Shown here: piece by piece, positions 7,845-64,000 of the stretch
Layout of the letters: every line of letters begins with the position of its first letter
Numbering within the stretch: position 1 is the stretch's first letter
Assembly: GCF_036373705.1 (NCBI RefSeq)
Contig: NW_027102721.1
Span: 62,001 to 126,000 of the forward strand
DNA length: 64,000 bases
DNA from: Amia ocellicauda
Taxonomy: Eukaryota > Chordata > Actinopteri > Amiiformes > Amiidae
Direction of reading: 5' to 3'
The notes under the pieces: model-generated
What the model saw: the letters and a program-made list of their open reading frames with translations, nothing else
The model's database searches: none
What the model was told of the DNA's origin: nothing
Program-made: the position numbers and the translations under genes

Positions 7845-8025
7845 AGTAGATAGTAGGGTTTTTTGGGCGCGGCCTATTTTGTTATGACGTATGCCCTAAG
7901 CTTATTAATATTCCTACGTCATTATTGGGGGGCGTGATTTTAGAGTTATTTCCTTAATTATTCCTACGTCATATCCGTCAGAAAGTGTACACCCCTAAAA
8001 CCCTGAACAACAAGGCCACCCATAA
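7845..8025 (+). repeat. Polinton 1 left terminal inverted repeat, 181 bp
   Basis: Matches the inverted right end from AGTAGATAG to the point where both arms read CCACCCATAA. It contains three near-palindromic TGACGTA/TACGTCA motifs resembling CRE/ATF sites, which could serve as enhancer or replication-origin sites. Confidence 0.93.
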
Positions 8026-8529
8026 TCGGTTGTTCTTGTTGTTCTTGTTGGTCAACTGTAGAGTGTGAATGGGTCGGGTCTTCCTGTAGTGGTTGGGGGT
8101 CTTTTTTAAATATACATGTAAGGGGCCCAGGTCTTAACAATGCCATTTTGAATAGTGCGTTTATCATATTCACACTGTCTCTGTCTCTGTCTCTCTCGCC
8201 CAAGCATTTTATAAGATCAACAAGTTCTGTTGTCTGTAATGGTCCCAGGTCTTAACAATGCCATTTTGAATAGTGCGTTTATCATATTCACACTGGCTCT
8301 GTCTCTGTCTGTCTCTATATCTCTCTCTCTCGCCCAATCATTTTATAAGATCAACAAGTTCTGTTGTCTGTAATGGTCACAGGTCCTAACAATTCCTGTT
8401 TTGCATAGGGTACTTATGTTAACCCCAATGTATATGGCTCTGTCTCTCCCCTCAAATTTAATTAAAAATAAAATTTAAAAAAAGAGAGTGTGTGTGTGTG
8501 TGGGTGTTTGTCGGTATAGTTTAATTGTT

Positions 8530-8560
<31 letters not shown>

Positions 8561-9377
8561 GCTGTGGTTATATTTTATCTCACACATAATGTGTTCATTC
8601 GTTTTACTTAAATACATTCTAGGGTCTTAAAGCTCATAAGAGTTAGACTTAAGATAAGGATATGTTTTTAAGGTATTTTAGCAGGCTCAATCCCTGATGA
8701 TAAGGAATCATTTAAAAAATAAAAACAACTGATCACTCAATGCTAAATAGATCACAACACTCAAGGCTAAATCACTCACACCACGGGGGACGGGGGTGGG
8801 CTCAGACAAACGTAGGCATGGCGTGTGGTCTCAAAACATTCAGAATACTTTTAAACTATATAATTTATAAGCTTTGTAAAATAAACCCAAATATCTCTTT
8901 TGTGGGGATAAACGCTGTTCTGAGTAGTTTGTGACTTGTTTAATACCAAACAAAGCATCGCTATTAAAAAAAAAAAAAAATCACTGTAAAAGCGCTACTT
9001 ATTTTAGATCTTTATAGTTATTTTCTTGGCTCAGGTTGTTTTTTAGCGCGTATAAAGGCCTGAAATATTCTTAGTGTTTATTGACTATAGGTCTTGATGC
9101 TTAAAAATGTTTTTTTGAGAGACCAAAAGGTTCTAATAAAAGTTTAGAGTAGAGAGGAGAGAGATCGTCGCCATCTTGGTTTCTATTTGAAATTGATGCA
9201 GGGTCATTTTATTGGTTGGTTTTGATATGTTAATTGGTAACAGGACGGCACAAAGGCCAGCCCAGAACAATGCCTTACAAGCAGATCCGGCATCCGGCCA
9301 TCAGTATAAGTATGAAGGTCTGGTCTTCAGCTCGACAGACTCATACTGACCTTTCGATTTAAGCCTAAAGATCAACA
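8026..9377. promoter_or_regulatory. Polinton 1 left non-coding region with tandem repeats and promoter elements
   Basis: No gene is visible. An imperfect tandem repeat of about 118-134 bp occurs at 8126-8243 and 8244-8377, with a degraded third copy at about 8378-8450; each copy has a CT-rich microsatellite. A poly(A) tract follows at about 8537-8560 and another near 8966-8980. TATAAAGG lies at 9051-9058, and TATAAG at 9304-9309 is about 70 bp before the first start codon at 9378, a likely core promoter for the spliced gene. Confidence 0.6.
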
Positions 9378-11413
9378 ATGTCCGGAAACAACATCAACGA
9401 CTTCGATTTAAACGAGTTTTTAGGTAAGTCTTCAGATTATTTTCATTGACTCAGAGCGGGTTGTGGGCATGTATTGTAAATAAGGTTATAACATCTGTTT
9501 TAAGTTCTGTAAAATTATTTTTCAGCCAGTCAACAGGAGTTAATTCCCAACGCTGAGGAGATCATCTGGAACAACGACGGTACGATTTTTGTGTTTGCGC
9601 TCAAGGGTTCTTAAGTATGGGTGTGTGGTTGTGTTTTGAAGCGGCTCATTAGAGTTATGAAAACGTTTTAATATATATTAATGGCGGTCTCTTTAATTAC
9701 ACAGAAACTATCGAAAGGCCTGTGATTAATGTCTCCGAGGATCAACCAAGAGAAGTGGTTGTCCCTAGACAGGCTGTCTGCCGACCGGGTAAGAACTAAA
9801 CCCCTGTTTGTTTGTATAACGTTTCTGTAAGATGTTTGAGGCCCGTCTTGTTAATTTAAAAAAATATCCTTTCTAACAGTATTAAGAAACGTGGTTCGAG
9901 ACAACGAAAGGCCTTCCACAGCGAGGGCTTGTTTAGTTTTACCTTCGAGAACCGTAACCTTTCAAGAATCTGAAAGGCCGTCAGCCCCTGTATCTGATAG
10001 CGGTGAGTATATATCTGCCGCTTGTAAGAGGTTAAAGCTTTTTATAAAGCGGGGTGGTTAAAGGTTAAACATGTCTCTTACCTTCACAGAAGTGCAAAAA
10101 GCTAAACCAGCTGAAAAACATAAGAAACGAATATTCTTTGGAGGTAAGTAAGATCTTTCAAACTTTAATGTTTTTAAAAGGGTTTTGTTTGCCCGTTGAG
10201 GGCTAATATTTAAGCGAGGGGTGCCCATTTCCTGTAGGTCTTGGGGGTTCTGGGAAAGATCTTTAGAAGTCCGGACAGGTCTAGGCTTGTTTCTGGGGCA
10301 TGTGTTTAGAAATGACCGATTGCCCGACCGTCTGGTTAGGAAGTAAAGCTGTCCGAAAGGTTTTAGTAAGTTGTTTGGCTTATCTCCCGCAATTATACTT
10401 CTGTTTTAAAGTGGCTGTAGGAAAAGGCTTGAAGGTGTTCATTGTATTTAATATTTAAACAGATCGTGAAAACGTTTGTGAAACAGGAAGTCCCGGGATC
10501 AGGAAGCGTTTACACTTGGAAGGTTCGTTTAAAAATGAAATGTGGTGTGTGTGTGTATAAAAAGTGTTTTATTAACAATATTACATTTAAGAAACAGTTT
10601 ATTTACAGAGGCTTCTCTGTTTTACATTTATTATCAAGTCCTAATAAATATATTGTCTGTAAATAATAAGGCGTTGTAGTGAATGTCTAAGCCTATTTTC
10701 AAAGGTCTAAAAAAGCTAAAGGTTTTGAAGGTCCTGGACATGTTGTTTTAAGTTTGATTTCTGTCGCCGTTTAAAGATGTAAATGTAATGTATATTTTTA
10801 TTCTTCCCAAGACTCTTGGGATAGTCATTCTGTGGATGAGCTATTGAGGACAATTACCCCGTCTAAGTGGGATCAAACATCTTCCCCGGAGAGATCACCG
10901 AGAGGATCCTCCACGGTGGTCTTGGAGATCCCCCAACATCTACTCAGGCCACAGCCTTCTGGGGGTAATTCAACAATCCAGATTCAGCCCGCCGCATTGT
11001 CGGGCGGAACAAATACAGGCAACCAACAACCTCAGGGGTCGCCGTCAGTCAGGGTTGACACACCACCCAACGACGGACTGGTTTCAACATCGTCCCCCCA
11101 GCCCCGTTTCTTGGCTACAGAAACGCTGAACAGTACACCGCGATTGGCCAGGGTGTCACCGCAAAGGCCTTCTTGGTCTCCGTCCGTGAGTATACGCTCG
11201 CTCCCTGCCTCCTTCGACCGAGATTTACCGGAGCGACCATCCTTTGCAGCTGAGCCAGGACACCATCCCCCGGAGCTACTTCCTGAAGGTCGGCATGAGT
11301 TGCTACATACCTTGTTACTAAATCAAAGACTTGTGTTAGTGGGGCAAAACCTTGTGATAGAGAGCCAAAACACCCTTATTAATACCCTTACTAACGAATT
11401 GTACCGTATTTAA
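9378..11413 (+). CDS. Polinton 1 spliced gene of unknown function
   Basis: The first ATG follows a TATA-like box by about 70 bp. A series of short coding-like segments is bounded by consensus splice sites: 9378-9423, 9526-9579, 9705-9788, 9880-10002 and 10090-10143, each ending before GTAAG/GTGAG/GTACG and starting after CAG. A terminal segment, 10812-11413, lies after CCCAAG and ends in TAA. The inner segments are multiples of three in length and the phases agree. The terminal part is rich in Pro, Ser and Arg, then ends in a Leu/Gln/Asn-rich, probably helical tail. I recognise no domain. The same layout holds in all three Polintons, which argues that the gene is real. Exon choice is inferred; further exons in the 10144-10811 gap are possible. 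Confidence 0.6.
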
Positions 11414-11476
11414 TGTTTTAATAGATACAAAACGCCTTACTATTGTGGGTTGTTGGAAAAATAAAAAATAAAAAAA

Positions 11477-11680
11477 ATGTCCGGACTTGGTAAAAGAACT
11501 CACAAACTAAAGGATTATGAACAAGTTAGGGCCCCAAAAAGACCTTCCCGAGAGAACACCCTCGGCCCTGTTGTGAACTCCTCTGATGTCCCAATGAACC
11601 AGGAACTATTACAAATGATAAATGATTTAAATAACCCCCAATCACCACCGATAGAATGTGAATTACCAGACTTACCGTGA
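11477..11680 (+). CDS. Polinton 1 small ORF, 67 aa
   Basis: Starts at an ATG after an A-rich leader and ends overlapping the open frame of PolB by 4 bases. The N-terminal half is basic (KRTHKLKDYEQ, APKRPSR). The C-terminal half carries NQELLQMINDLNN, closely resembling two segments at the start of the PolB frame (NPDLLQMVNDLNN and HPDLFEMVEALE). Identical in length in all three Polintons. Function unknown; it may be a regulatory or partner peptide related to the PolB N-terminus. Confidence 0.5.
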   Translation: MSGLGKRTHKLKDYEQVRAPKRPSRENTLGPVVNSSDVPMNQELLQMINDLNNPQSPPIECELPDLP

Positions 11681-11697
11681 ACCCCGACCTGTTACAG

Positions 11698-14600
11698 ATG
11701 GTCAATGATCTAAATAACCACCTCCCAACGGTAGCGCTTATAGAGGTTCAACCCCGAGTTCACCCCGATTTGTTTGAAATGGTGGAGGCTTTGGAGACGC
11801 TACCCCGACCAAATTCTGCCCCTATTATAAATGATTTGAGACAATTAGAACACAGTACGGCGGCAGAAGCAGCCGTCACTATAGAGGAGGGTCTTGACAT
11901 TAACCGGGTGGATATCTTTGAAGGACTTTTACAGGCTTTAAATGAGCCTCCTCAAAAAGGGGGTTTTGTAGATGTCAGCGGTGGGGGTGTTCGGAATGTG
12001 GAGGGTTCTGAGACTGATAAGGCTGTGGATAACATGCTCTGTGAGAATGTAGGGGTTGAAGGCTTTGTTCAAAATGATGATGTGTCCAAAAGTACCAGTG
12101 ATCCCGTGATTATAGATAGACCGGCCTATAACAATTTTGAAATGATTCAGCGTTTTAATTTTGCAGAACTTTTAAATTGTGACAATTATGCAGAAATATT
12201 TGTCAACATACACGAGGCCTTGCAAAACATGCTTGAACAGGTTGCTGAAAGGGTCAGACCTCGAGATGTTGTACAGTTAGAACTCAGAGGGGATGATTTG
12301 TTTAGCAACCTATCTGTAATGCTGAGTGGAGATAATTTAGATGTTGATGAATTTCTGGCTAAAATCGAAGCGTTATTGCAAAGTAACGCATCCATCTTAG
12401 CTGATGAAAGTCTGTCTCTGGTAATGAATGTGGTTCCTAACCCTGAGGGTGGGGCGCTTAGAAGACTGTCGAAATGCTTGAAGAACGACATAATTAGGAA
12501 CAAGCTCAGGCAATTAGTGGTGAGTTCCAATGGGGACAATAAGCTCTGTTTTGCTTACAGTTTAATAAAACTACTCACCCCCGACATGCCTGAACCCCAA
12601 GCTATGCAAGAGGCTTTAATGCTTCATCAGAGGGCCGGCTTAAACTCTCAACAGATGGTTGCCTTTTCAGACATTGCCATGTTTGAGGAGTTGTTGTCTT
12701 TAAAAATTGTTGTGTGGTACCGTTGTGAGGTAAAGGAAGTATTTGTGAAATTTCAGACACATCCTGAAACCCATACACAGACACTGTTTCTCTTCCTAAG
12801 TGATAGTCATTACTTTGGAATAAAGAGTTTGACGGCTTTTTTGGGTTGTTCGTATGTTTGTCATTGGTGTTATAAGGCCTTCAATGATAAGCTTAAGCAC
12901 CGCTGTGACGGTTACTGTAACGTCTGTTTCAATCCGCAATGTCGTAAGGGTTTGGCCCCTACCATCCGATGTAAAGATTGCTTAAGGATTTGTCTCTCCG
13001 CATTCTGTTTTTCCGAACATAAGGTGCAGAGGGCCGCTGCTGAGGGGGTTAAAAAACGGAGTTATTGTGATCAAACTAAATATTGCCCGCAGTGTTGCCT
13101 CCAGTACCGTTTTCATGAGGTTAAACCACACAAATGTCTGGAACCGAGATGTAGGATCTGTAATGCGGATTTAACCCCGGGGTCTGAACACCAGTGCTTT
13201 ATTCAGCCGGTTAAAAAGGAGCCGCCGCACAACCGGTATGTCTTTTTTGATTTTGAATGCCGGCAAGAAAACGGGGTCCATGTTGCTAATTATATACACT
13301 GTATTGACATGTTGGATTGTGAGTGGTCAGCTAGCGGTGAGAGTTGTGTCAGGGATTTCTTTACGCGGTATCGCGGTCCAAAATACCTCAATTACACATT
13401 TATTGCCCACAATGCTAAGGGTTATGATTCTTACATATTGATGAAGTATCTGGTGGAAAATGGGGTGACCCCAAAAATAATAGCTCAGGGTAGCAAGATC
13501 ATGTGTTTCACCAACGAGGCTTTCAACCAACGTTACATAGACTCGTTAAATTTCCTCCCCATGAAATTGAGCGCTTTGCCTAAAGCTCTGGGTTTTGAGG
13601 CTCAGAAGAAAGGTTGGTTCTGCCATTTTTTTAATACTAAGGACACTCAAAATTATCGAGGGTCCTACCCGCCCGCCTCTTATTATGGGGTTGATACTAT
13701 GATGTCTCATGAGAGGGAGGAATTCTTTAAATGGTACAATACGGTTAAGGGGGGTGTTTTTGATTTCCGAGAAGAGATGGCCGCTTATTGTAAAAATGAT
13801 GTGGAGATCCTTAAAGAAGCCTGTTTGCGTTTCCGCACCGAGGTTATCAACACGTCGGGTCTCGACCCTTTGCAAAGTGTGACCATAGCGTCTCTCTGCA
13901 TGAAAATGTATCGATCCAATTTCTTGCAGAAAAACACTATAGCGGACACCACTTCTGACAACTATCGTGCTAGACAAAAGAACTTTTCGACTGTCTCCAT
14001 ACAGTGGCTGGAATATCTGAGTGCCCGGGATAACATCTTCATCAGACATGCTTTAAATCAAGGGGAAGTCAAAATGGGTCCTTACTACTTAGACGGTTTT
14101 AGCGACGTGTCCGGGCGGCGTACCGCTTATGAGTTTGCTGGTTGTATTTACCATGGCTGTCCTCAGTGCTTCGACCCAAACACCTTTAACCCCGTAACAC
14201 AAAAACTCTGCGGTGATATGTACTATGATTTCCAGGAACGAATTGAAACTTTAAAAAACACCTATGGTTTGAATGTACTGGTGATTTGGGAACACGCGTG
14301 GACGACCCTGAAGCAACAGGATGTGGAGGTACAACGGTTTATGGAAACCTTGGACTTTCCTGAACGTCTAGAGCCCAGGGATGCGTTATTTGGGGGTCGT
14401 ACCAACGCCCTCTGTTTACATTATGAGGTAAAGGAGGGTGAGAGAGTAGATTACTATGATTTCACCAGTCTGTACCCTTATGTCAACAAGACCAAAATGT
14501 ACCCGGTGGGGCATCCAACCATTGTTTATCGTGACTTTCTCGAAATCGGACAGTACTTTGGTTTGATCAAAGTCACCATGTACCCTCCTCGTGAGCTGTT

Positions 14601-15714
14601 CCTACCCGTGTTGCCTTACAGGTGTTCGGGAAAATTGATGTTCCCTCTGTGTAGAACGTGTGTGGAAACTGAAAATCAAAATACCTCTTGTCTGCACAGT
14701 GATGACGAGAGAGCGCTGACGGGTGTCTGGTGTAGCATTGAGCTTGACAAGGCGGTGGAGAAAGGTTACAGAGTCGGTAAGGTGTATGAGGTTTGGCATT
14801 TTTCTGAAAAATCTGATACTCTTCTTGCTGAGTACATTATGACCCATCTGAAAGGGAAACAGGAGGCATCGGGCTATCCCTCATGGTGTGTTGACTCCGC
14901 TGCCAAAGAGCGGTACGTTCAGCAATATTTTGAAAAGGAAGGGATCCGTCTAGAGCCGGGGAACATAACTGTAAACCCCGCCAAGAGACAAATGTCCAAA
15001 CTGATTTTAAACAGTCTGTGGCGTAAGTTTGGGGAAAGAAATAACCGTCTAAACACAACCTTGATTAAAACCCCTGAACAGTTTATAGAATTTATCTTTT
15101 CCAAACAACATGCAGTATCACACTTTCAATTCTTAAATGACCACGTGGCACAGGTCCAGTGGAGGGCCCCTAAAGATTTCCCCACCAAACAGGGAAACGT
15201 TAATGTTTTCATAGCGGTTTTTACCACGGCTTACGCCCGGCTTGAACTGTACAACTTAATGGATCAGCTGCAGGAACGCACGCTCTATCATGATACTGCC
15301 TCTGTAATCTTTGTCACCAGGCCAGGGGATTGGGTCCCTCCCCTCGGGGACTACCTTGGGGAGTTAACGAGCGAGCTAGATCCTCAGGACCACATAGTGG
15401 AGTTTGTTTCAGGGGGTCCTAAGACTTACGCATACAGAACGGCTGCGGGTAAGACCTGTATGAAAGTTAAGGGTTTCACTCTGAACCATTGTAACAACAA
15501 GCTCATTAACATCAAGTCTCTGACGACCCTGGTACAAAGTTTTGTAACCGAGAAAGACGCGCCTCCTCGCGAGATTATTACAGCCGGAAATCAGATCTAT
15601 CACAATAAAAAGGGGTACACATTGGAAAATAGATCACTAAACAAACGGTTCAGGGTGGTGTACAATAAAAGAGTGTTGAAGACTGATTATACCACTCTGC
15701 CTTATGGATATTAG
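11698..15714 (+). CDS. Polinton 1 protein-primed DNA polymerase B
   Basis: Family B polymerase of the Polinton/adenovirus protein-primed type, which replicates the linear element. The open frame runs from 11677 but its first ATG is at 11698. Counting from 11677, residues 1-500 form an N-terminal extension with DLLQM-type repeats, a segment around NKLCFAYSLIKLL and a Cys/His-rich, probably zinc-binding region (about 390-505). The 3'-5' exonuclease motifs follow: FFDFE near 525, IAHNAKGYD near 577 and YCKND near 705. Polymerase motif A (DFTSLYP) is near 928, motif B (KLILNS) near 1108 and motif C near 1203. At over 1,300 codons it is long for the family because of the N-terminal extension. It overlaps the ATPase start by 11 bases. 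The three copies differ by a handful of substitutions. Confidence 0.95.
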   Translation: MVNDLNNHLPTVALIEVQPRVHPDLFEMVEALETLPRPNSAPIINDLRQLEHSTAAEAAVTIEEGLDINRVDIFEGLLQALNEPPQKGGFVDVSGGGVRNVEGSETDKAVDNMLCENVGVEGFVQNDDVSKSTSDPVIIDRPAYNNFEMIQRFNFAELLNCDNYAEIFVNIHEALQNMLEQVAERVRPRDVVQLELRGDDLFSNLSVMLSGDNLDVDEFLAKIEALLQSNASILADESLSLVMNVVPNPEGGALRRLSKCLKNDIIRNKLRQLVVSSNGDNKLCFAYSLIKLLTPDMPEPQAMQEALMLHQRAGLNSQQMVAFSDIAMFEELLSLKIVVWYRCEVKEVFVKFQTHPETHTQTLFLFLSDSHYFGIKSLTAFLGCSYVCHWCYKAFNDKLKHRCDGYCNVCFNPQCRKGLAPTIRCKDCLRICLSAFCFSEHKVQRAAAEGVKKRSYCDQTKYCPQCCLQYRFHEVKPHKCLEPRCRICNADLTPGSEHQCFIQPVKKEPPHNRYVFFDFECRQENGVHVANYIHCIDMLDCEWSASGESCVRDFFTRYRGPKYLNYTFIAHNAKGYDSYILMKYLVENGVTPKIIAQGSKIMCFTNEAFNQRYIDSLNFLPMKLSALPKALGFEAQKKGWFCHFFNTKDTQNYRGSYPPASYYGVDTMMSHEREEFFKWYNTVKGGVFDFREEMAAYCKNDVEILKEACLRFRTEVINTSGLDPLQSVTIASLCMKMYRSNFLQKNTIADTTSDNYRARQKNFSTVSIQWLEYLSARDNIFIRHALNQGEVKMGPYYLDGFSDVSGRRTAYEFAGCIYHGCPQCFDPNTFNPVTQKLCGDMYYDFQERIETLKNTYGLNVLVIWEHAWTTLKQQDVEVQRFMETLDFPERLEPRDALFGGRTNALCLHYEVKEGERVDYYDFTSLYPYVNKTKMYPVGHPTIVYRDFLEIGQYFGLIKVTMYPPRELFLPVLPYRCSGKLMFPLCRTCVETENQNTSCLHSDDERALTGVWCSIELDKAVEKGYRVGKVYEVWHFSEKSDTLLAEYIMTHLKGKQEASGYPSWCVDSAAKERYVQQYFEKEGIRLEPGNITVNPAKRQMSKLILNSLWRKFGERNNRLNTTLIKTPEQFIEFIFSKQHAVSHFQFLNDHVAQVQWRAPKDFPTKQGNVNVFIAVFTTAYARLELYNLMDQLQERTLYHDTASVIFVTRPGDWVPPLGDYLGELTSELDPQDHIVEFVSGGPKTYAYRTAAGKTCMKVKGFTLNHCNNKLINIKSLTTLVQSFVTEKDAPPREIITAGNQIYHNKKGYTLENRSLNKRFRVVYNKRVLKTDYTTLPYGY

Positions 15715-16375
15715 CAGTGGTTTTGATAACAGACTTCAACACCCTTTCTCCTGTATTATAGCCGGTCCCTCCAATTCGGGTAAGAGCTATCTTATAAAGA
15801 ACATCATAGAAGATGTGGACGCAACCGTGTCCCAAGCTCTTGACAACATAGTGTGGTGTTACTCTTGCTGGCAACCTCTCTACGATGATTTGGCATCAAA
15901 AAAAAATAATCTGAAATTTGTGCAAGGTCTCCCCGCCTCGTTGTGTGACGTTGACCTGTTCCCGCCCGGACAAACTAATCTAGTGATCCTTGATGACCTG
16001 ATGGAGCAGGCCGGTGACAACAGTGAAGTGGAAAAAGCTTTCACAAAGTACACTCATCATAGGAATTTAAGTATTATTTATTTAGTTCAAAATCTATTTT
16101 TTCAAGGTAAAAAAAGCCGCACTATTAATTTAAATGCCAATTATATAATTATTTTTAAAAACCCCAGAGATAAACTACAGGTCACCGTCTTGGCTCGTCA
16201 AATGTACCCTAACCAGACCAAATTCTTTTTGGAGGCATTTGAGGATGCCACCAAAAAACTCTACGGGTACTTGATTGTGGACTTAAAAGCACAAACCCCA
16301 GAAGACTTTCGCCTCAGAACAGGTTTGTGCCCGCCCGATTGGCCGGCAGTGTATGTGCTAAAGAAAAGGAAATAA
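15704..16375 (+). CDS. Polinton 1 packaging ATPase (FtsK/HerA type)
   Basis: 223-aa ATPase thought to pump element DNA into the capsid. The Walker A loop GPSNSGKS lies at residues 21-28 and the Walker B strand LVILDD at about 93-98; the rest fits the short A32-like ATPases of Polintons and nucleocytoplasmic viruses. Its ATG lies inside the last codons of PolB in another frame, a compact arrangement typical of these elements. Confidence 0.92.
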   Translation: MDISSGFDNRLQHPFSCIIAGPSNSGKSYLIKNIIEDVDATVSQALDNIVWCYSCWQPLYDDLASKKNNLKFVQGLPASLCDVDLFPPGQTNLVILDDLMEQAGDNSEVEKAFTKYTHHRNLSIIYLVQNLFFQGKKSRTINLNANYIIIFKNPRDKLQVTVLARQMYPNQTKFFLEAFEDATKKLYGYLIVDLKAQTPEDFRLRTGLCPPDWPAVYVLKKRK

Positions 16376-16381
16376 ATAAGA

Positions 16382-16717
16382 ATGTCTGTTCGGATTAAAA
16401 GAAATCTGCCGCTTTTGCAAATGTTATTTGAGGGGAGCCCGCGCCATAGGAAAGCTGTGCTGGCAGGGGCCCCCTCGGATTTGATCGAGACCCTGTGTGA
16501 AATAGCTTTTAACATCTTACGCGGTAATATACCCCTAACCCCTTCTCAACATTCTAAACTCAAAAAACAAAAAGCGGTTATCAAGATCATCGCTAATAAG
16601 AAGTATTCTATTAAAAGAAAAAGAAAGAAGATTAATCAAACCGGAGGTTTTATAGGACCGCTGTTGAGCATAGCCGTGCCTTTCCTAACCAGTCTTCTAG
16701 CTTCCAGAGTGGGTTAA
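16382..16717 (+). CDS. Polinton 1 small basic protein with hydrophobic tail (PX-like)
   Basis: 111 aa. The N-terminal half is leucine-rich with NIPLTPSQ, a sequence often seen in this small Polinton protein. The middle is strongly basic (KKYSIKRKRKK). The C-terminal end is a hydrophobic, glycine-containing segment (GGFIGPLLSIAVPFLTSLL), which suggests membrane or capsid-interior contact. It lies 6 bp after the ATPase and 2 bp before the next gene. Function unproven; probably a minor virion protein. Confidence 0.75.
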   Translation: MSVRIKRNLPLLQMLFEGSPRHRKAVLAGAPSDLIETLCEIAFNILRGNIPLTPSQHSKLKKQKAVIKIIANKKYSIKRKRKKINQTGGFIGPLLSIAVPFLTSLLASRVG

Positions 16718-16719
16718 TA

Positions 16720-17463: not shown

Positions 17464-17641
17464 TCTCATGTTTTTATTTGTCTCCCCTGTAAATAAGGAA
17501 CCGACAAACAATTTTTTTATTTTTTATTTTTATTTTCAAATGTTGTACATTTATTTATAACATAACCCTGCTTTGTATAAGATTTGTGTTGAATAAAAAC
17601 AAAACTAATGATTCAAAGGCTGTTTTCATTATTTTTTCACT
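17464..17641. terminator. Polinton 1 convergent polyadenylation region
   Basis: Plus- and minus-strand gene sets meet here. AATAAA for the plus strand is at 17592-17597; TTTATT (AATAAA on the minus strand) is at 17550-17555, and further A/T-rich signals lie near 17514-17535. The two signal sets cross, so the two transcripts probably overlap at their 3' ends. Confidence 0.7.
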
Positions 17642-18199: not shown

Positions 18200-18200
18200 T

Positions 18201-19508: not shown

Positions 19509-19510
19509 TT

Positions 19511-19999: not shown

Positions 20000-20000
20000 T

Positions 20001-20756: not shown

Positions 20757-20802
20757 CTTGAGTATCGAAAGTAATGACCCCATCACACCAGCGGGCATGT
20801 TG

Positions 20803-22463: not shown

Positions 22464-22469
22464 AGTCCC

Positions 22470-50175: not shown

Positions 50176-50498
50176 GGGCTCTCGGTGAGGCCGACCCCCA
50201 CTTCTTCAGTCTTTAAGTGGCACGTCGCGAGTAAGTCCTTTCCTGCGCTTCAGGCAAGCTTGCAGCCAACTGCGGACGACTTTACATCCTCGGTGGCAGC
50301 CATCGCCCCGCAATAGAAAAGGATTGTCATGAGCAAAACTTTCAAAGTGACCGAAAAGATCACGGCCCGTCGTGTGATGTGATTTACATGAGCTGCAGAA
50401 ACGTTCATGGAAATATGTATATAAGTAAGGATTTAATCACAGATAGAGAGAGAGAAAACGCACCATACAGGTCCTAGGGGAAGAGCAACAGATCCACC

Positions 50499-54023: not shown

Positions 54024-54204
54024 AGTAGATAGTAGGGTTTTTTGGGCGCGGCCTATTTTGTTATGACGTATGCCCTAAGCTTATTAATATTCCTACGTCA
54101 TAATTGGGGGGCGTGATTTTAGAGTTATTTCCTTAATTATTCCTACGTCATATCCGTCAGAAAGTGTACACCCCTAAAACCCTGAACAACAAGGCCACCC
54201 ATAA
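54024..54204 (+). repeat. Polinton 3 left terminal inverted repeat
   Basis: 181 bp matching the left repeats of Polintons 1 and 2; its partner is beyond the edge. Confidence 0.9.
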
Positions 54205-55578
54205 CCGGTTGTTCTTGTTGTTCTTGTTGGTCAACTGTAGAGTGTGAATGGGTCGGCTCTTCCTGTAGTGGTTGGGGGTCTTTTTTAAATATACATGTAA
54301 GGGGCCCAGGTCTTAACAATGCCATTTTGAATAGTGCGTTTATCATATTCACACTGTCTCTGTCTCTGTCTCTGTCTGTCTCTCTCTCTCTGTCTCTCTC
54401 GCCCAAGCATTTTATAAGATCAACAAGTTCTGTTGTCTGTAATGGTCCCAGGTCTTAACAATGCCATTTTGAATAGTGCGTTTATCATATTCACACTGGC
54501 TCTGTCTCTGTCTGTCTCTATATCTCTCTCTCTCGCCCAATCATTTTATAAGATCAACAAGTTCTGTTGTCTGTAATGGTCACAGGTCCTAACAATTCCT
54601 GTTTTGCATAGGGTACTTATGTTAACCCCAATGTATATGGCTCTGTCTCTCCCCTCAAATTTAATTAAAAATAAAATTTAAAAAAAGAGAGTGTGTGTGT
54701 GTGTGGGTGTTTGTCGGTATAGGTTAATTGTTTTTGTAAAAAAAAAAAAAAAAAAAAAAAAGCTGTGGTTATATTTTATCTCACACATAATGTGTTCATT
54801 CGTTTTACTTAAATACATTCTAGGGTCTTAAAGCTCATAAGAGTTAGACTTAAGATAAGGATATGTTTTTAAGGTATTTTAGCAGGCTCAATCCCTGATG
54901 ATAAGGAATCATTTAAAAAATAAAAACAACTGATCACTCAATGCTAAATAGATCACAACACTCAAGGCTAAATCACTCACACCACGGGGGACGGGGGTGG
55001 GCTCAGACAAACGTAGGCATGGCGTGTGGTCTCAAAACATTCAGAATACTTTTAAACTATATAATTTATAAGCTTTGTAAAATAAACCCAAATATCTCTT
55101 TTGTGGGGATAAACGCTGTTCTGAGTAGTTTGTGACTTGTTTAATACCAAACAAAGCATCGCTATTAAAAAAAAAAAAAAATCACTGGAAAAGCGCTACT
55201 TATTTTAGATCTTTATAGTTATTTTCTTGGCTCAGGTTGTTTTTTAGCGCGTATAAAGGCCTGAAATATTCTTAGTGTTTATTGACTATAGGTCTTGATG
55301 CTTAAAAATGTTTTTTTGAGAGACCAAAAGGTTCTAATAAAAGTTTAGAGTAGAGAGGAGAGAGATCGTCGCCATCTTGGTTTCTATTTGAAATTGATGC
55401 AGGGTCATTTTATTGGTTGGTTTTGATATGTTAATTGGTAACAGGACGGCACAAAGGCCAGCCCAGAACAATGCCTTACAAGCAGATCCGGCATCCGGCC
55501 ATCAGTATAAGTATGAAGGTCTGGTCTTCAGCTCGACAGACTCATACTGACCTTTCGATTTAAGCCTAAAGATCAACA
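54205..55578. promoter_or_regulatory. Polinton 3 left non-coding region
   Basis: Same repeat, poly(A) and TATA layout as 8026-9377; the CT microsatellite length matches Polinton 2 more than Polinton 1. Confidence 0.55.
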
Positions 55579-57614
55579 ATGTCCGGAAACAACATCAACG
55601 ACTTCGATTTAAACGAGTTTTTAGGTAAGTCTTCAGATTATTTTCATTGACTCAGAGCGGGTTGTGGGCATGTATTGTAAATAAGGTTATAACATCTGTT
55701 TTAAGTTCTGTAAAATTATTTTTCAGCCAGTCAACAGGAGTTAATTCCCAACGCTGAGGAGATCATCTGGAACAACGACGGTAAGATTTTTGTGTTTGCG
55801 CTCAAGGGTTCTTATGTATGGGTGTGTGGTTGTGTTTTGAAGCGGCTCATTAGAGTTATGAAAACGTTTTAATATATATTAATGGCGGTCTCTTTAATTA
55901 CACAGAAACTATCGAAAGGCCTGTGATTAATGTCTCCGAGGATCAACCAAGAGAAGTGGTTGTCCCTAGACAGGCTGTCTGCCGACCGGGTAAGAACTAA
56001 ACCCCTGTTTGTTTGTATAACGTTTCTGTAAGATGTTTGAGGCCCGTCTTGTTAATTTAAAAAAATATCCTTTCTAACAGTATTAAGAAACGTGGTTCGA
56101 GACAACGAAAGGCCTTCCACAGCGAGGGCTTGTTTAGTTTTACCTTCGAGAACCGTAACCTTTCAAGAATCTGAAAGGCCGTCAGCCCCTGTATCTGATA
56201 GCGGTGAGTATATATCTGCCGCTTGTAAGAGGTTAAAGCTTTTTATAAAGCGGGGTGGTTAAAGGTTAAACATGTCTCTTACCTTCACAGAAGTGCAAAA
56301 AGCTAAACCAGCTGAAAAACATAAGAAACGATTATTCTTTGGAGGTAAGTAAGATCTTTCAAACTTTAATGTTTTTAAAAGGGTTTTGTTTGCCCGTTGA
56401 GGGCTAATATTTAAGCGAGGGGTGCCCATTTCCTGTAGGTCTTGGGGGTTCTGGGAAAGATCTTTAGAAGTCCGGACAGGTCTAGGCTTGTTTCTGGGGC
56501 ATGTGTTTAGAAATGACCGATTGCCCGACCGTCTGGTTAGGAAGTAAAGCTGTCCGAAAGGTTTTAGTAAGTTGTTTGGCTTATCTCCCGCAATTATACT
56601 TCTGTTTTAAAGTGGCTGTAGGAAAAGGCTTGAAGGTGTTCATTGTATTTAATATTTAAACAGATCGTGAAAACGTTTGTGAAACAGGAAGTCCCGGGAT
56701 CAGGAAGCGTTTACACTTGGAAGGTTCATTTAAAAATGAAATGTGGTGTGTGTGTGTATAAAAAGTGTTTTATTAACAATATTACATTTAAGAAACAGTT
56801 TATTTACAGAGGCTTCTCTGTTTTACATTTATTATCAAGTCCTAATAAATATATTGTCTGTAAATAATAAGGCGTTGTAGTGAATGTCTAAGCCTATTTT
56901 CAAAGGTCTAAAAAAGCTAAAGGTTTTGAAGGTCCTGGACATGTTGTTTTAAGTTTGATTTCTGTCGCCGTTTAAAGATGTAAATGTAATGTATATTTTT
57001 ATTCTTCCCAAGACTCTTGGGATAGTCATTCTGTGGATGAGCTATTGAGGACAATTACCCCGTCTAAGTGGGATCAAACATCTTCCCCGGAGAGATCACC
57101 GAGAGGATCCCCCACGGTGGTCTTGGAGACCCCCCAACATCTACTCAGGCCACAGCCTTCTGGGGGTAATTCAACAATCCAGATTCAGCCCGCCGCATTG
57201 TCGGGCGGAACAAATACAGGCAACCAACAACCTCAGGGGTCGCCGTCAGTCAGGGTTGACACACCACCCAACGACGGACTGGTTTCAACATCGTCCCCCC
57301 AGCCCCGTTTCTTGGCTACAGAAACGCTGAACAGTACACCGCGATTGGCCAGGGTGTCACCGCAAAGGCCTTCTTGGTCTCCGTCCATGAGTATACGCTC
57401 GCTCCCTGCCTCCTTCGACCGAGATTTACCGGAGCGACCATCCTTTGCAGCTGAGCCAGGACACCATCCCCCGGAGCTACTTCCTGAAGGTCGGCATGAG
57501 TTGCTACATACCTTGTTACTAAATCAAAGACTTGTGTTAGTGGGGCAAAACCTTGTGATAGAGAGCCAAAACACCCTTATTAATACCCTTACTAACGAAT
57601 TGTACCGTATTTAA
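55579..57614 (+). CDS. Polinton 3 spliced gene of unknown function
   Basis: Counterpart of 9378-11413 with the same splice-site layout. Confidence 0.58.
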
Positions 57615-57677
57615 TGTTTTAATAGATACAAAACGCCTTACTATTGTGGGTTGTTGGAAAAATAAAAAATAAAAAAA

Positions 57678-57881
57678 ATGTCCGGACTTGGTAAAAGAAC
57701 TCACAAACTAAAGGATTATGAACAAGTTAGGGCCCCAAAAAGACCTTCCCGAGAGAACACCCTCGGCCCTGTTGTGAACTCCTCTGATGTCCCAATGAAC
57801 CAGGAACTATTACAAATGATAAATGATTTAAATAACCCCCAATCACCACCGATAGAATGTGAATTACCAGACTTACCGTGA
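57678..57881 (+). CDS. Polinton 3 small ORF, 67 aa
   Basis: Identical in protein sequence to the ORF at 11477. Confidence 0.5.
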   Translation: MSGLGKRTHKLKDYEQVRAPKRPSRENTLGPVVNSSDVPMNQELLQMINDLNNPQSPPIECELPDLP

Positions 57882-57898
57882 ACCCCGACCTTTTACAG

Positions 57899-60800
57899 AT
57901 GGTCAATGATCTAAATAACCACCTCCCAACGGTAGCGCTTATAGAGGTTCAACCCCTAGTTCACCCCGATTTGTTTGAAATGGTGGAGGCTTTGGAGACG
58001 CTACCCCGACCAAATTCTGCCCCTATTATAAATTTGAGACAATTAGAACACAGTACGGCGGCAGAAGCAGCCGTCACTATAGAGGAGGGTCTTGACATTA
58101 ACCGGGTGGATATCTTTGAAGGACTTTTACAGGCTTTAAATGAGCCTCCTCAAAAAGGGGGTTTTGTAGATGTCAGCGGTGGGGGTGTTCGGAATGTGGA
58201 GGGTTCTGAGACTGATAAGGCTGTGGATAACATGCTCTGTGAGAATGTAGGGGTTGAAGGCTTTGTTCAAAATGATGATGTGTCCAAAAGTACCAGTGAT
58301 CCCGTGATTATAGATAGACCGGCCTATAACAATTTTGAAATGATTCAGCGTTTTAATTTTGCAGAACTTTTAAATTGTGACAATTATGCAGAAATATTTG
58401 TCAACATACACGAGGCCTTGCAAAACATGCTTGAACAGGTTGCTGAAAGGGTCAGACCTCGAGATGTTGTACAGTTAGAACTCAGAGGGGATGATTTGTT
58501 TAGCAACCTATCTGTAATGCTGAGTGGAGATAATTTAGATGTTGATGAATTTCTGGCTAAAATCGAAGCGTTATTGCAAAGTAACGCATCCATCTTAGCT
58601 GATGAAAGTCTGTCTCTGGTAATGAATGTGGTTCCTAACCCTGAGGGTGGGGCGCTTAGAAGACTGTCGAAATGCTTGAAGAACGACATAATTAGGAACA
58701 AGCTCAGGCAATTAGTGGTGAGTTCCAATGGGGACAATAAGCTCTGTTTTGCTTACAGTTTAATAAAACTACTCACCCCCGACATGCCTGAACCCCAAGC
58801 TATGCAAGAGGCTTTAATGCTTCATCAGAGGGCCGGCTTAAACTCTCAACAGATGGTTGCCTTTTCAGACATTGCCATGTTTGAGGAGTTGTTGTCTTTA
58901 AAAATTGTTGTGTGGTACCGTTGTGAGGTAAAGGAAGTATTTGTGAAATTTCAGACACATCCTGAAACCCATACACAGACACTGTTTCTCTTCCTAAGTG
59001 ATAGTCATTACTTTGGAATAAAGAGTTTGACGGCTTTTTTGGGTTGTTCGTATGTTTGTCATTGGTGTTATAAGGCCTTCAATGATAAGCTTAAGCACCG
59101 CTGTGACGGTTACTGTAACGTCTGTTTCAATCCGCAATGTCGTAAGGGTTTGGCCCCTACCATCCGATGTAAAGATTGCTTAAGGATTTGTCTCTCCGCG
59201 TTCTGTTTTTCCGAACATAAGGTGCAGAGGGCCGCTGCTGAGGGGGTTAAAAAACGGAGTTATTGTGATCAAACTAAATATTGCCCGCAGTGTTGCCTCC
59301 AGTACCGTTTTCATGAGGTTAAACCACACAAATGTCTGGAACCGAGATGTAGGATCTGTAATGCGGATTTAACCCCGGGGTCTGAACACCAGTGCTTTAT
59401 TCAGCCGGTTAAAAAGGAGCCGCCGCACAACCGGTATGTCTTTTTTGATTTTGAATGCCGGCAAGAAAACGGGGTCCATGTTGCTAATTATATACACTGT
59501 ATTGACATGTTGGATTGTGAGTGGTCAGCTAGCGGTGAGAGTTGTGTCAGGGATTTCTTTACGCGGTATCGCGGTCCAAAATACCTCAATTACACATTTA
59601 TTGCCCACAATGCTAAGGGTTATGATTCTTACATATTGATGAAGTATCTGGTGGAAAATGGGGTGACCCCAAAAATAATAGCTCAGGGTAGCAAGATCAT
59701 GTGTTTCACCAACGAGGCTTTCAACCAACGTTACATAGACTCGTTAAATTTCCTCCCCATGAAATTGAGCGCTTTGCCTAAAGCTCTGGGTTTTGAGGCT
59801 CAGAAGAAAGGTTGGTTCTGCCATTTTTTTAATACTAAGGACACTCAAAATTATCGAGGGTCCTACCCGCCCGCCTCTTATTATGGGGTTGATACTATGA
59901 TGTCTCATGAGAGGGAGGAATTCTTTAAATGGTACAATACGGTTAAGGGGGGTGTTTTTGATTTCCGAGAAGAGATGGCCGCTTATTGTAAAAATGATGT
60001 GGAGATCCTTAAAGAAGCCTGTTTGCGTTTCCGCACCGAGGTTATCAACACGTCGGGTCTCGACCCTTTGCAAAGTGTGACCATAGCGTCTCTCTGCATG
60101 AAAATGTATCGATCCAATTTCTTGCAGAAAAACACTATAGCGGACACCACTTCTGACAACTATCGTGCTAGACAAAAGAACTTTTCGACTGTCTCCATAC
60201 AGTGGCTGGAATATCTGAGTGCCCGGGATAACATCTTCATCAGACATGCTTTAAATCAAGGGGAAGTCAAAATGGGTCCTTACTACTTAGACGGTTTTAG
60301 CGACGTGTCCGGGCGGCGTACCGCTTATGAGTTTGCTGGTTGTATTTACCATGGCTGTCCTCAGTGCTTCGACCCAAACACCTTTAACCCCGTAACACAA
60401 AAACTCTGCGGTGATATGTACTATGATTTCCAGGAACGAATTGAAACTTTAAAAAACACCTATGGTTTGAATGTACTGGTGATTTGGGAACACGCGTGGA
60501 CGACCCTGAAGCAACAGGATGTGGAGGTACAACGGTTTATGGAAACCTTGGACTTTCCTGAACGTCTAGAGCCCAGGGATGCGTTATTTGGGGGTCGTAC
60601 CAACGCCCTCTGTTTACATTATGAGGTAAAGGAGGGTGAGAGAGTAGATTACTATGATTTCACCAGTCTGTACCCTTATGTCAACAAGACCAAAATGTAC
60701 CCGGTGGGGCATCCAACCATTGTTTATCGTGACTTTCTCGAAATCGGACAGTACTTTGGTTTGATCAAAGTCACCATGTACCCTCCTCGTGAGCTGTTCC

Positions 60801-61912
60801 TACCCGTGTTGCCTTACAGGTGTTCGGGAAAATTGATGTTCCCTCTGTGTAGAACGTGTGTGGAAACTGAAAATCAAAATACCTCTTGTCTGCACAGTGA
60901 TGACGAGAGAGCGCTGACGGGTGTCTGGTGTAGCATTGAGCTTGACAAGGCGGTGGAGAAAGGTTACAGAGTTGGTAAGGTGTATGAGGTTTGGCATTTT
61001 TCTGAAAAATCTGATACTCTTTTTGCTGAGTACATTATGACCCATCTGAAAGGGAAACAGGAGGCATCGGGCTATCCCTCATGGTGTGTTGACTCCGCTG
61101 CCAAAGAGCGGTACGTTCAGCAATATTTTGAAAAGGAAGGGATCCGTCTAGAGCCGGGGAACATAACTGTAAACCCCGCCAAGAGACAAATGTCCAAACT
61201 GATTTTAAACAGTCTGTGGGGTAAGTTTGGGGAAAGAAATAACCGTCTAAACACAACCTTGATTAAAACCCCTGAACAGTTTATAGAATTTATCTTTTCC
61301 AAACAACATGCAGTATCACACTTTCAATTCTTAAATGACCACGTGGCACAGGTCCAGTGGAGGGCCCCTAAAGATTTCCCCACCAAACAGGGAAACGTTA
61401 ATGTTTTCATAGCGGTTTTTACCACGGCTTACGCCCGGCTTGAACTGTACAACTTAATGGATCAGCTGCAGGAACGCACGCTCTATCATGATACTGACTC
61501 TGTAATCTTTGTCACCAGGCCAGGGGATTGGGTCCCTCCCCTCGGGGACTACCTTGGGGAGTTAACGAGCGAGCTAGATCCTCAGGACCACATAGTGGAG
61601 TTTGTTTCAGGGGGTCCTAAGACTTACGCATACAGAACGGCTGCGGGTAAGACCTGTATGAAAGTTAAGGGTTTCACTCTGAACCATTGTAACAACAAGC
61701 TCATTAACATCAAGTCTCTGACGACCCTGGTACAAAGTTTTGTAACCGAGAAAGACGCGCCTCCTCGCGAGATTATTACAGCCGGAAATCAGATCTATCA
61801 CAATAAAAAGGGGTACACATTGGAAAATAGATCACTAAACAAACGGTTAAGGGTGGTGTACAATAAAAGAGTGTTGAAGACTGATTATACCACTCTGCCT
61901 TATGGATATTAG
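57899..61912 (+). CDS. Polinton 3 DNA polymerase B
   Basis: Counterpart of 11698-15714 with the same exonuclease and polymerase motifs in order; near-identical throughout. Confidence 0.94.
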   Translation: MVNDLNNHLPTVALIEVQPLVHPDLFEMVEALETLPRPNSAPIINLRQLEHSTAAEAAVTIEEGLDINRVDIFEGLLQALNEPPQKGGFVDVSGGGVRNVEGSETDKAVDNMLCENVGVEGFVQNDDVSKSTSDPVIIDRPAYNNFEMIQRFNFAELLNCDNYAEIFVNIHEALQNMLEQVAERVRPRDVVQLELRGDDLFSNLSVMLSGDNLDVDEFLAKIEALLQSNASILADESLSLVMNVVPNPEGGALRRLSKCLKNDIIRNKLRQLVVSSNGDNKLCFAYSLIKLLTPDMPEPQAMQEALMLHQRAGLNSQQMVAFSDIAMFEELLSLKIVVWYRCEVKEVFVKFQTHPETHTQTLFLFLSDSHYFGIKSLTAFLGCSYVCHWCYKAFNDKLKHRCDGYCNVCFNPQCRKGLAPTIRCKDCLRICLSAFCFSEHKVQRAAAEGVKKRSYCDQTKYCPQCCLQYRFHEVKPHKCLEPRCRICNADLTPGSEHQCFIQPVKKEPPHNRYVFFDFECRQENGVHVANYIHCIDMLDCEWSASGESCVRDFFTRYRGPKYLNYTFIAHNAKGYDSYILMKYLVENGVTPKIIAQGSKIMCFTNEAFNQRYIDSLNFLPMKLSALPKALGFEAQKKGWFCHFFNTKDTQNYRGSYPPASYYGVDTMMSHEREEFFKWYNTVKGGVFDFREEMAAYCKNDVEILKEACLRFRTEVINTSGLDPLQSVTIASLCMKMYRSNFLQKNTIADTTSDNYRARQKNFSTVSIQWLEYLSARDNIFIRHALNQGEVKMGPYYLDGFSDVSGRRTAYEFAGCIYHGCPQCFDPNTFNPVTQKLCGDMYYDFQERIETLKNTYGLNVLVIWEHAWTTLKQQDVEVQRFMETLDFPERLEPRDALFGGRTNALCLHYEVKEGERVDYYDFTSLYPYVNKTKMYPVGHPTIVYRDFLEIGQYFGLIKVTMYPPRELFLPVLPYRCSGKLMFPLCRTCVETENQNTSCLHSDDERALTGVWCSIELDKAVEKGYRVGKVYEVWHFSEKSDTLFAEYIMTHLKGKQEASGYPSWCVDSAAKERYVQQYFEKEGIRLEPGNITVNPAKRQMSKLILNSLWGKFGERNNRLNTTLIKTPEQFIEFIFSKQHAVSHFQFLNDHVAQVQWRAPKDFPTKQGNVNVFIAVFTTAYARLELYNLMDQLQERTLYHDTDSVIFVTRPGDWVPPLGDYLGELTSELDPQDHIVEFVSGGPKTYAYRTAAGKTCMKVKGFTLNHCNNKLINIKSLTTLVQSFVTEKDAPPREIITAGNQIYHNKKGYTLENRSLNKRLRVVYNKRVLKTDYTTLPYGY

Positions 61913-62573
61913 CAGTGGTTTTGATAACAGACTTCAACACCCTTTCTCCTGTATTATAGCCGGTCCCTCCAATTCGGGTAAGAGCTATCTTATAAAGAAC
62001 ATCATAGAAGATGTGGACGCAACCGTGTCCCAAGCTCTTGACAACATAGTGTGGTGTTACTCTTGCTGGCAACCTCTCTACGATGATTTGGCATCAAAAA
62101 AAAATAATCTGAAATTTGTGCAAGGTCTCCCCGCCTCGTTGTGTGACGATGACCTGTTCCCGCCCGGACAAACTAATCTAGTGATCCTTGATGACCTGAT
62201 GGAGCAGGCCGGTGACAACAGTGAAGTGGAAAAAGCTTTCACAAAGTACACTCATCATAGGAATTTAAGTATTATTTATTTAGTTCAAAATCTATTTTTT
62301 CAAGGTAAAAAAAGCCGCACTATTAATTTAAATGCCAATTATATAATTCTTTTTAAAAACCCCAGAGATAAACTACAGGTCACCGTCTTGGCTCGTCAAA
62401 TGTACCCTAACCAGACCAAATTCTTTTTGGAGGCATTTGAGGATGCCACCAAAAAACCCTACGGGTACTTGATTGTGGACTTAAAAGCACAAACCCCAGA
62501 AGACTTTCGCCTCAGAACAGGTTTGTGCCCGCCCGATTGGCCGGCAGTGTATGTGCTAAAGAAAAGGAAATAA
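61902..62573 (+). CDS. Polinton 3 packaging ATPase
   Basis: Counterpart of 15704-16375 with Walker A GPSNSGKS and Walker B LVILDD. Confidence 0.92.
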   Translation: MDISSGFDNRLQHPFSCIIAGPSNSGKSYLIKNIIEDVDATVSQALDNIVWCYSCWQPLYDDLASKKNNLKFVQGLPASLCDDDLFPPGQTNLVILDDLMEQAGDNSEVEKAFTKYTHHRNLSIIYLVQNLFFQGKKSRTINLNANYIILFKNPRDKLQVTVLARQMYPNQTKFFLEAFEDATKKPYGYLIVDLKAQTPEDFRLRTGLCPPDWPAVYVLKKRK

Positions 62574-62579
62574 ATAAGA

Positions 62580-62915
62580 ATGTCTGTTCGGATTAAAAGA
62601 AATCTGCCGCTTTTGCAAATGTTATTTGAGGGGAGCCCGCGCCATAGGAAAGCTGTGCTGGCAGGGGCCCCCTCGGATTTGATCGAGACCCTGTGTGAAA
62701 TAGCTTTTAACATCTTACGCGGTAATATACCCCTAACCCCTTCTCAACATTCTAAACTCAAAAAACAAAAAGCGGTTATCAAGATCATCGCTAATAAGAA
62801 GTATTCTATTAAAAGAAAAAGAAAGAAGATTAATCAAACCGGAGGTTTTATAGGACCGCTGTTGAGCATAGCCGTGCCTTTCCTAACCAGTCTTCTAGCT
62901 TCCAGAGTGGGTTAA
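62580..62915 (+). CDS. Polinton 3 PX-like basic protein
   Basis: Same protein sequence as the copy at 16382. Confidence 0.75.
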   Translation: MSVRIKRNLPLLQMLFEGSPRHRKAVLAGAPSDLIETLCEIAFNILRGNIPLTPSQHSKLKKQKAVIKIIANKKYSIKRKRKKINQTGGFIGPLLSIAVPFLTSLLASRVG

Positions 62916-62917
62916 TA

Positions 62918-63661
62918 ATGGAATATGCTCAGAAAATGTTTTTGATCCCTCAGGAGCAGCTTGAGAAACTGAGAAAAAATGTTGTCGGGCCAGAGCCCAT
63001 TAGACAAACGGCCGAAAACAACCTGGACTCTGAAATGAAAGCTATACTGGCCAGGGCCGATTTAAATCAGTATTCCAAAGCCCAGATGTATAGCAACACG
63101 TTACAGCGCTACCTCCGTCTGGTTAGACAGGGTGAAAAAGATCAAAACATTTTAACTTTAACCATGGCCTCTCAAGAAAATGGTTCTGGGACTGATGCGG
63201 GGGGTACGGTTGATAAAGATGTTGCGGTGCCCGAACCTGTTGAGAGTTCAGAGGGAGATGTTGTAACGGATGTTTTGAGAAACATGCCGGCCAGAAGCAA
63301 AAGACATGCAGAATATATTCTGCACAAAATGGTTCAGAAACCGCGGGTAACGACTTGGAATGAACAGGGTGAATTTGTTTTTAAAGGACAACTGATCAAA
63401 GGTTCACACATGTTTGATTTGTTGAAGAGTGTCACTAGCACTAATAAGGTACCCGATAGTCGCCGACCTGTAGGCTGGAATGCTTTCCTACAGGCGATGG
63501 CCTGTCTGAACATGCCCCAATCAACAGTCCCTAACCAGGAAACGCGACAAAAAATCCGTCTGTGTAAAGAGGTGGTGACTGATCTGACGCCGATATCTCA
63601 TTACTCTGACCGTGTTGAGCAACCCTCCTCAGGATCTATCCATCGTTGGGAAGCTTATTAA
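62918..63661 (+). CDS. Polinton 3 conserved structural-type protein, 247 aa
   Basis: Same protein sequence as the copy at 16720. Confidence 0.7.
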   Translation: MEYAQKMFLIPQEQLEKLRKNVVGPEPIRQTAENNLDSEMKAILARADLNQYSKAQMYSNTLQRYLRLVRQGEKDQNILTLTMASQENGSGTDAGGTVDKDVAVPEPVESSEGDVVTDVLRNMPARSKRHAEYILHKMVQKPRVTTWNEQGEFVFKGQLIKGSHMFDLLKSVTSTNKVPDSRRPVGWNAFLQAMACLNMPQSTVPNQETRQKIRLCKEVVTDLTPISHYSDRVEQPSSGSIHRWEAY

Positions 63662-63839
63662 TCTCATGTTTTTATTTGTCTCCCCTGTAAATAAGGAACC
63701 GACAAACAATTTTTTTATTTTTTATTTTTATTTTCAAATGTTGTACATTTATTTATAACATAACCCTGCTTTGTATAAGATTTGTGTTGAATAAAAACAA
63801 AACTAATGATTCAAAGGCTGTTTTCATTATTTTTTCACT

Positions 63840-64000
63840 TTAACACGCATGACATCTTTTAAAATCCTCACAAGAACACCCCATCTGTATACATGGCTGG
63901 CTAGGGTCGTAAGTAATTGTGTTATAAGGGGGGGTCCACAGTGTCCTGACAAACTCTGCCACTTTTTTATCATTTTGGCCTAAATCCTCACTGTACAAGG
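63840..64000 (-). CDS. Polinton 3 adenain-like protease, C-terminal end only
   Basis: Matches the end of the protease at 17642; the gene's start lies beyond the window. Confidence 0.85.
   Translation of the reverse strand, partial: LYSEDLGQNDKKVAEFVRTLWTPPYNTITYDPSQPCIQMGCSCEDFKRCHAC

Follow-up and report, generated by a model that had tools for sequence, protein, structure and literature searches.

Polintons at one site of a tandem tRNA array in Amia ocellicauda: very probably a single insertion multiplied with the array, at irregular spacing

How three virus-like elements come to stand at one and the same nucleotide of different copies of a tRNA gene unit is the question raised by a stretch of 64,000 nucleotides from Amia ocellicauda (contig NW_027102721.1, here C86; hereafter the window, C86:62001-126000, so that a C86 coordinate is the window position plus 62000). 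Units of ~3.52 kb make up the window as a tandem array, each of them carrying a tRNA-Glu(CTC) gene on the minus strand and a tRNA-Gln(CTG) gene on the plus strand. Six such pairs are present, and a self-comparison of the window showed the units, numbered S0 to S6 in succession, to be 97-99% alike. Three Polintons (P1 to P3; the next one on C86 is P4) begin at positions 7845, 31445 and 54024, each directly after the sequence GCACCA[C/T]ACAGG of the unit, and their start-to-start distances are 23,600 and 22,579 bp, as the original prediction had stated. All three occupy this one site, although only P1 and P2 are complete within the window, P3 running past its end. The 12-mer GCACCAYACAGG occurs seven times in the window, and the target hexamer lies at +28 to +33 past the 3' end of tRNA-Glu. 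The unit continues uninterrupted at 797, 4321, 27919 and 50471, while a Polinton follows at 7844, 31444 and 54023; since the intact sites have a single hexamer, the 6-bp repeat that flanks the elements is a true target duplicate. Random insertion would not by coincidence have placed three elements at one base of a 3.5-kb unit. What follows argues that, with high probability, one Polinton inserted into the tRNA array and was then multiplied with the array by unequal exchange, which left an irregular spacing.

The evidence that carries this reading came from a search of the 988-Mb assembly of the window's own genome. The end of the Polinton was found, with up to three mismatches, at 503 + 511 places, which would correspond to a family of roughly 500 copies if each copy contributes two ends. 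The best-scored matches of the tRNA unit fall on C6 (49.47-50.66 Mb), C55, C78 and C86. Fourteen array copies were examined, four on C86 (P1-P4) and ten on C6 (49.47-49.71 Mb), together with a dispersed sample: 100 listed Polinton-end places (all on C1-C6) included 30 paired copies that lie elsewhere than in the array, and 20 of these were taken with 1 kb per side. The insertion base is the same in P1-P4 and in all ten C6 copies, and P1-P3 and the same ten share one orientation relative to the unit. CACAGG stands on both sides of P1, P2 and the ten C6 copies, as well as to the right of P3 and to the left of P4. The dispersed copies behave differently: a perfect 6-bp duplicate borders 18 of the 20, 15 different hexamers being represented, none of the 20 uses the array hexamer YACAGG, and ARAGORN predicted tRNA genes in only two of the 40 flanks, both tRNA-Thr at ~260 bp, one of the 40 being legible only in part. 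As the dispersed copies sit at other hexamers and rarely near a tRNA gene, the family does not seek the array site.

A tree of the right ends (900 bases, 699 for P3, with P4 left out; 13 array and 15 dispersed rows) united the 13 array rows with L084, a dispersed copy lying in a ~146-bp satellite on C2, as a clade supported at 100/97 against the 14 other dispersed rows. The mean distance was 0.59% within the array, 2.2% among the 15 dispersed rows and 2.1% between the two groups, and a clade of array copies only was not rejected (p = 0.70). The terminal inverted repeats were uninformative, no difference between left and right being common to the copies. Some of the dispersed loci show duplication of their own. 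The Polinton locus L016/L018 (C1, 22.74 and 22.90 Mb) is duplicated with its flanks (99.9/99.2% over 1 kb), as is L030/L032 (C2, 59.87 and 59.97 Mb; 99.3/100% over 1 kb), which lies in ~146-bp satellite near tRNA-Thr; L028 is a separate insertion into what seems to be the same satellite as that of L030, their target hexamers being a few bases apart.

Internal deletions provided a further set of markers. The 890-bp deletion of P2 leaves 888 bases unmatched, with 2 bases shared at the joint, and its 50-base junction recurs in P3 (L132, in the part outside the window) as well as in two of the ten C6 copies, numbers 8 and 10. P4 and the remaining eight C6 copies are continuous across that place. 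C6 copies 2 and 4, in turn, are both shorter by ~2.5 kb within the same interval, as judged from size, and they also share end variants (99/96) and identical left flanks of 600 bp. Deletions common to several array copies imply that the deleted copies were duplicated in place. Thus, the proposal that a single insertion was later amplified with the array drew support from three sides, namely the other targets used by 20 of 20 dispersed copies, the shared deletion junction and the clade of array ends. Given their common deletion and two-unit distance, P2 and P3 may locally stem from the duplication of a single block that comprised a Polinton and two units.

The original prediction went further and took a filled and an empty unit together as the amplified higher-order repeat, that is, a monomer of ~23 kb multiplied head to tail. 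The order P1-empty-P2-empty-P3 in the window speaks for it, as does the two-unit distance of P2 and P3 with their common deletion, which is possibly such a duplication, although alternate spacing arises by chance in 3 of the 35 ways of filling three of seven sites. That all neighbours are parted by exactly one empty unit is true inside the window only. Ten sites of C86 between 52.5 and 146.8 kb read empty, empty, empty, empty, filled, empty, filled, empty, filled, filled: four empty sites precede P1 (797 and 4321 in the window and ~55.8 and ~59.3 kb on C86), and the first site past P3 holds P4, at C86:135229. On C6, nine successive intervals measure 3, 2, 2, 3, 4, 2, 3, 1 and 1.8 unit lengths, as judged from interval length. 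Two-unit spacing is therefore seen in four of nine intervals on C6 and two of three on C86, that is, in six of 12, the others being of one, three or four units, and no constant multi-unit period runs along the stretches examined, where spacing varies from ~1 to 4 units over the 12 intervals. Regular alternation is a local feature of the window and not a rule of the array. A two-unit repeat also predicts likeness within S2, S4 and S6, which precede Polintons, and within S3 and S5, which follow them. None of 24 informative gap-free columns of the unit unites same-phase units; ten unite the neighbours S1 and S2, five S1 and S6, and nine show other splits. Holding S2, S4 and S6 together costs 14 additional steps over the whole unit (approximately unbiased, AU, test, p = 1.1e-5) and eight when just the 790 bp preceding the site are considered (AU p = 4.4e-4). 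Smaller groupings are cheaper, which lends the two-unit repeat some support: S2 with S4 costs only one step left of the site, though nine over the whole unit; two steps suffice to join S4 and S6 across the whole unit; and S3 with S5 costs two across the whole unit (AU p = 0.175) and three within the 445 bp that follow the site (AU p = 0.045). Considering the order of sites and the columns together, the pair of units as the amplified monomer found no support as a rule in the stretches examined, and we regard a strict higher-order repeat as improbable.

Two other explanations compete with this reading. A Polinton might have inserted repeatedly and independently, targeting the site past tRNA-Glu in the manner of Skipper-2 or Dada; the site does lie no more than 33 bp outside a tRNA end, as does just 3.6% of the unit, and the flanks of the filled units in the window differ. 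Tests confined to the window favoured such recurrent insertion, which was discarded on the right duplicate of P3 and on the sampled dispersed copies. The latter, with the array hexamer in none of 20 and tRNA genes near two of 40 flanks, show no such preference; the reading predicted TACAGG to the right of P3, whereas CACAGG is found there; and independent insertions do not account for an internal deletion common to several array copies. Altogether, this leaves targeted insertion with hardly any probability. The array could also be an artefact of assembly, with Polinton units falsely duplicated or merged from haplotypes and C86 the alternative version of a portion of the C6 array. Unit matches do reach to ~17 kb from the end of C6 and recur on C55, C78 and C86, as happens where assemblies break in arrays. 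However, P1-P3 differ from each other by private substitutions and indels, and S1-S6 are mutually different, so that an artefact is very unlikely. The pairwise divergence of P1-P3 is 0.23-0.36%, with 7, 9 and 2 private substitutions, respectively, in 2,927 noncoding columns and 8, 17 and 6 in 6,685 columns of the open reading frame (ORF) region, besides indels. In the ORFs common to all three, 26 of the 31 substitutions private to a single copy are nonsynonymous, against a neutral expectation of 75%, and the private ORF substitutions would fit decay under every reading.

Several observations weigh against one insertion multiplied by exchange. The flanks diverge more than the Polintons that they enclose (S2-S4 0.94% vs. 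0.36%; S3-S5 1.57% vs. 0.36%), and the flanks of filled sites do not form one clade, either in the window (AU p = 4.4e-4) or with the C6 copies included (p = 7e-8). Of the 14 filled sites, 13 have a left flank of the P1/P2 unit variant; the outlier is P3, whose left flank alone groups with S0 and S1. Two of four empty sites also carry the filled-flank variant. The dispersed L084 falls inside the array clade, albeit with weak inner support, and only a single column has a state that all array rows share and none of the 15 dispersed rows shows. The C6 sample covers 49.47-49.71 Mb only, the unit matches extending to 50.66 Mb and to C55 and C78. An unpaired Polinton end is also seen at C6:49.32 Mb, ~150 kb before the first listed array Polinton of C6. 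Part of the excess divergence of the flanks sits in the ~500 bp adjoining the site. In bins from 500 to 3000 bp, the difference between flank and Polinton pair gave p = 0.16 for S2-S4 (0.57%), 0.011 for S2-S6, 0.013 for S4-S6 and 8e-6 for S3-S5 (26/2,290; the bins sum to 2,260). Therefore, the comparison of Polinton and flank divergence, put forward as a check by the original prediction, was inconclusive between the readings: the flanks are more diverged, with a smaller contrast in these bins. Since filled flanks are not a clade and some empty sites carry the filled variant, exchange after insertion is needed. The unequal duplicates of P3, TACAGG on the left and CACAGG on the right, would be a sign of such later exchange, its left flank having been swapped after insertion.

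These data could be integrated as follows, assuming a single insertion followed by exchange. One Polinton would have integrated into a CACAGG-variant unit of a large tRNA-Glu/tRNA-Gln array, at the hexamer 28-33 bp past tRNA-Glu. Unequal exchange between misaligned units (unequal crossing-over, conversion or break-induced copying) would then have multiplied it, each exchange carrying the Polinton along with a variable count of empty units, and the same process may later have replaced some flanks, for example the left flank of P3. In this way, the Polinton would gain copies as array cargo and without transposing. The position of the site bears on whether the host could tolerate the insertion. 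In an empty unit, the first T-run past tRNA-Glu is TTTT at +41; the insertion falls between the gene and this run, and the end of the element supplies TTTTTT at +48. Beside P1 and P2 (24399-24503 and 47144-47248), the first T-run past tRNA-Glu is indeed this Polinton-end TTTTTT. As the sampled family is not tRNA-specific, the T-run offered by the element end probably made the insertion harmless by luck. One might extend this to a host array acting as an amplifier, in which selection on tRNA dosage or drift multiplies the units and a Polinton that supplies a T-run (TTTTTT at +48 for TTTT at +41) is tolerated and persists as a large, non-transposing reserve of copies, at least one of them (P1) with its recognised genes open; such a role is doubtful. 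The features of the window are collected in Table 1.

Table 1. Units, Polintons, P1 genes and other features of the window, in window positions.
Feature	Position	Strand	Remark
S0, unit end up to empty insertion site	1..797	+	
tRNA-Glu(CTC), first of six	825..896	-	tRNA prediction
tRNA-Gln(CTG), first of six	1032..1103	+	tRNA prediction
S1, full unit, 3524 bp	798..4321	+	terminates at empty site
1.83-kb insert splitting the unit's tRNA-Ala gene (one example)	2158..3986		
S2, full unit, left flank of P1	4322..7844	+	left duplicate CACAGG 7839-7844
Polinton 1 (P1), 16,554 bp	7845..24398	+	between CACAGG duplicates
ORF, 212 aa, in P1	10775..11413	+	no Pfam match
DNA polymerase B, viral/organellar type, 1350 aa, in P1	11662..15714	+	PF03175 (E 4.9e-43)
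ATPase-like gene, in P1	15680..16375	+	weak Pox_A32 match, 20.3 bits, under Pfam cut-off 22.8
Adenovirus-type protease, in P1	17642..18235	-	PF00770 (E 3.4e-5), above cut-off
Capsid-type gene, 443-aa product, in P1	18201..19532	-	homologues named F54H12.2-like
Integrase, 372 aa, in P1	20803..21921	-	rve core (E 1.3e-12) and chromodomain (Chromo, 1.1e-9)
S3, unit following P1, to empty site	24399..27919	+	right duplicate CACAGG 24399-24404
S4, left flank of P2	27920..31444	+	CACAGG 31439-31444
Polinton 2 (P2), 15,699 bp	31445..47143	+	between CACAGG duplicates; 890-bp internal deletion ~11.4 kb from left end
S5, to empty site	47144..50471	+	CACAGG 47144-47149; ~200 bp lost near 48263-48275
S6, left flank of P3	50472..54023	+	left duplicate TACAGG 54018-54023, mismatching the right CACAGG outside the window
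Polinton 3 (P3), first 9,977 bp in window	54024..64000	+	extends to C86:131699, 15,676 bp in total

The elements have the hallmarks of Polintons (also called Mavericks), with DNA polymerase B (PolB), a retroviral-type integrase, an adenovirus-type protease and inverted ends (~180 bp in P1 and P2) bordered by 6-bp duplicates. The PolB of P1 is presumably of the protein-primed type, and the genes recognised in P1 are all open. PolB, protease and rve integrase were matched in P2 as well, where no chromodomain match was obtained, and PolB in the part of P3 visible in the window. P2 is damaged: its deletion affects the capsid-gene region, an ORF with no assigned function is interrupted by a stop, and the integrase frame ends before the chromodomain. 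The capsid-type product is a candidate for the double jelly-roll major capsid protein; its predicted model, although rich in strands, is of low confidence (predicted local distance difference test, pLDDT, 56.6). A sequence search with this protein found no relative among solved structures and 2,314 homologues, the best of which is 72% identical and unnamed; among the 120 matches listed, those with names come from fishes, reptiles and amphibians. The closest homologue of the integrase is 61% identical, and a minnow adintovirus integrase is 54% identical. Searches of viral contigs and of genome contigs returned no relatives.

The units also carry an insert of 1.83 kb that splits a tRNA-Ala gene at the anticodon. 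In one example, the halves lie at 2118-2157 and 3987-4021, with the joints TAGCAT/CAGCAT; exact 5' halves occur six times in the window and exact 3' halves four times, and no exact 3' half was found in S5, the unit with ~200 bp lost at 48263-48275. A 96% copy of the insert elsewhere in the genome, itself hit by a Polinton (L012), terminates at the same base, 3986, which suggests that the insert is a mobile repeat. No long reading frame was found in it. The site given for Dada-tA in the accessible part of PMC3706591 is TAGCAT, which makes Dada a candidate identity for the insert.

How do these observations relate to known systems? Mobile DNA can join tandem arrays, and transposon cargo in tandem gene arrays is of a known kind. 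No Polinton in a tRNA array was found in the literature on Polintons, tRNA targets and arrays, a search that covered subscription papers only sparsely; by analogy, a Polinton as cargo of a tandem tRNA array would be a new form of such cargo. In gene content (PolB, rve integrase with chromodomain, adenovirus-type protease), inverted ends and 6-bp duplicates, the latter reported for Mavericks in the accessible part of Barreat and Katzourakis 2021 (PMC8097293), the present elements resemble vertebrate Polintons/Mavericks (adintoviruses), from which they differ in having multiplied inside a tandem tRNA array; in a word search, "tRNA" and "array" were absent from the main text of PMC8097293. According to the accessible portions of the respective papers, cryptophyte Polinton-like viruses have no tRNA genes nearby (PMC12220804), and the integration of virophages is not sequence-specific (PMC8547959). 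Skipper-2, whose chromodomain is diverged and whose insertions lie 8-23 bp downstream of tRNA genes (accessible part of PMC5911963), and Dada, a tRNA-targeting element (accessible part of PMC3706591), are similar in that they insert in or close to a tRNA gene, whereas the present family is not tRNA-targeted in the 20 dispersed copies sampled. The 5S arrays of pike, described as higher-order, structured tandem arrays (PMC5437419), and retrotransposon-derived tandem repeats (PMC7004042), as far as the available parts of both papers go, likewise consist of units amplified and homogenised in tandem; here, in contrast, the cargo is virus-like and ~16 kb long and its spacing is irregular, and for pike no transposon cargo is described in the available part of PMC5437419.

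If this reading is correct, exchange within an array would be a second route by which Polintons gain copies, beside transposition and infection, and it would mislead estimates of age, activity or bursts that are based on counts of Polintons. Outside the tRNA array, too, Polintons were duplicated together with their flanks at two further loci among the 20 sampled dispersed copies. Because its deletion variants serve as markers, the array would constitute a natural record of how a 16-kb insert moves through tandem genes.

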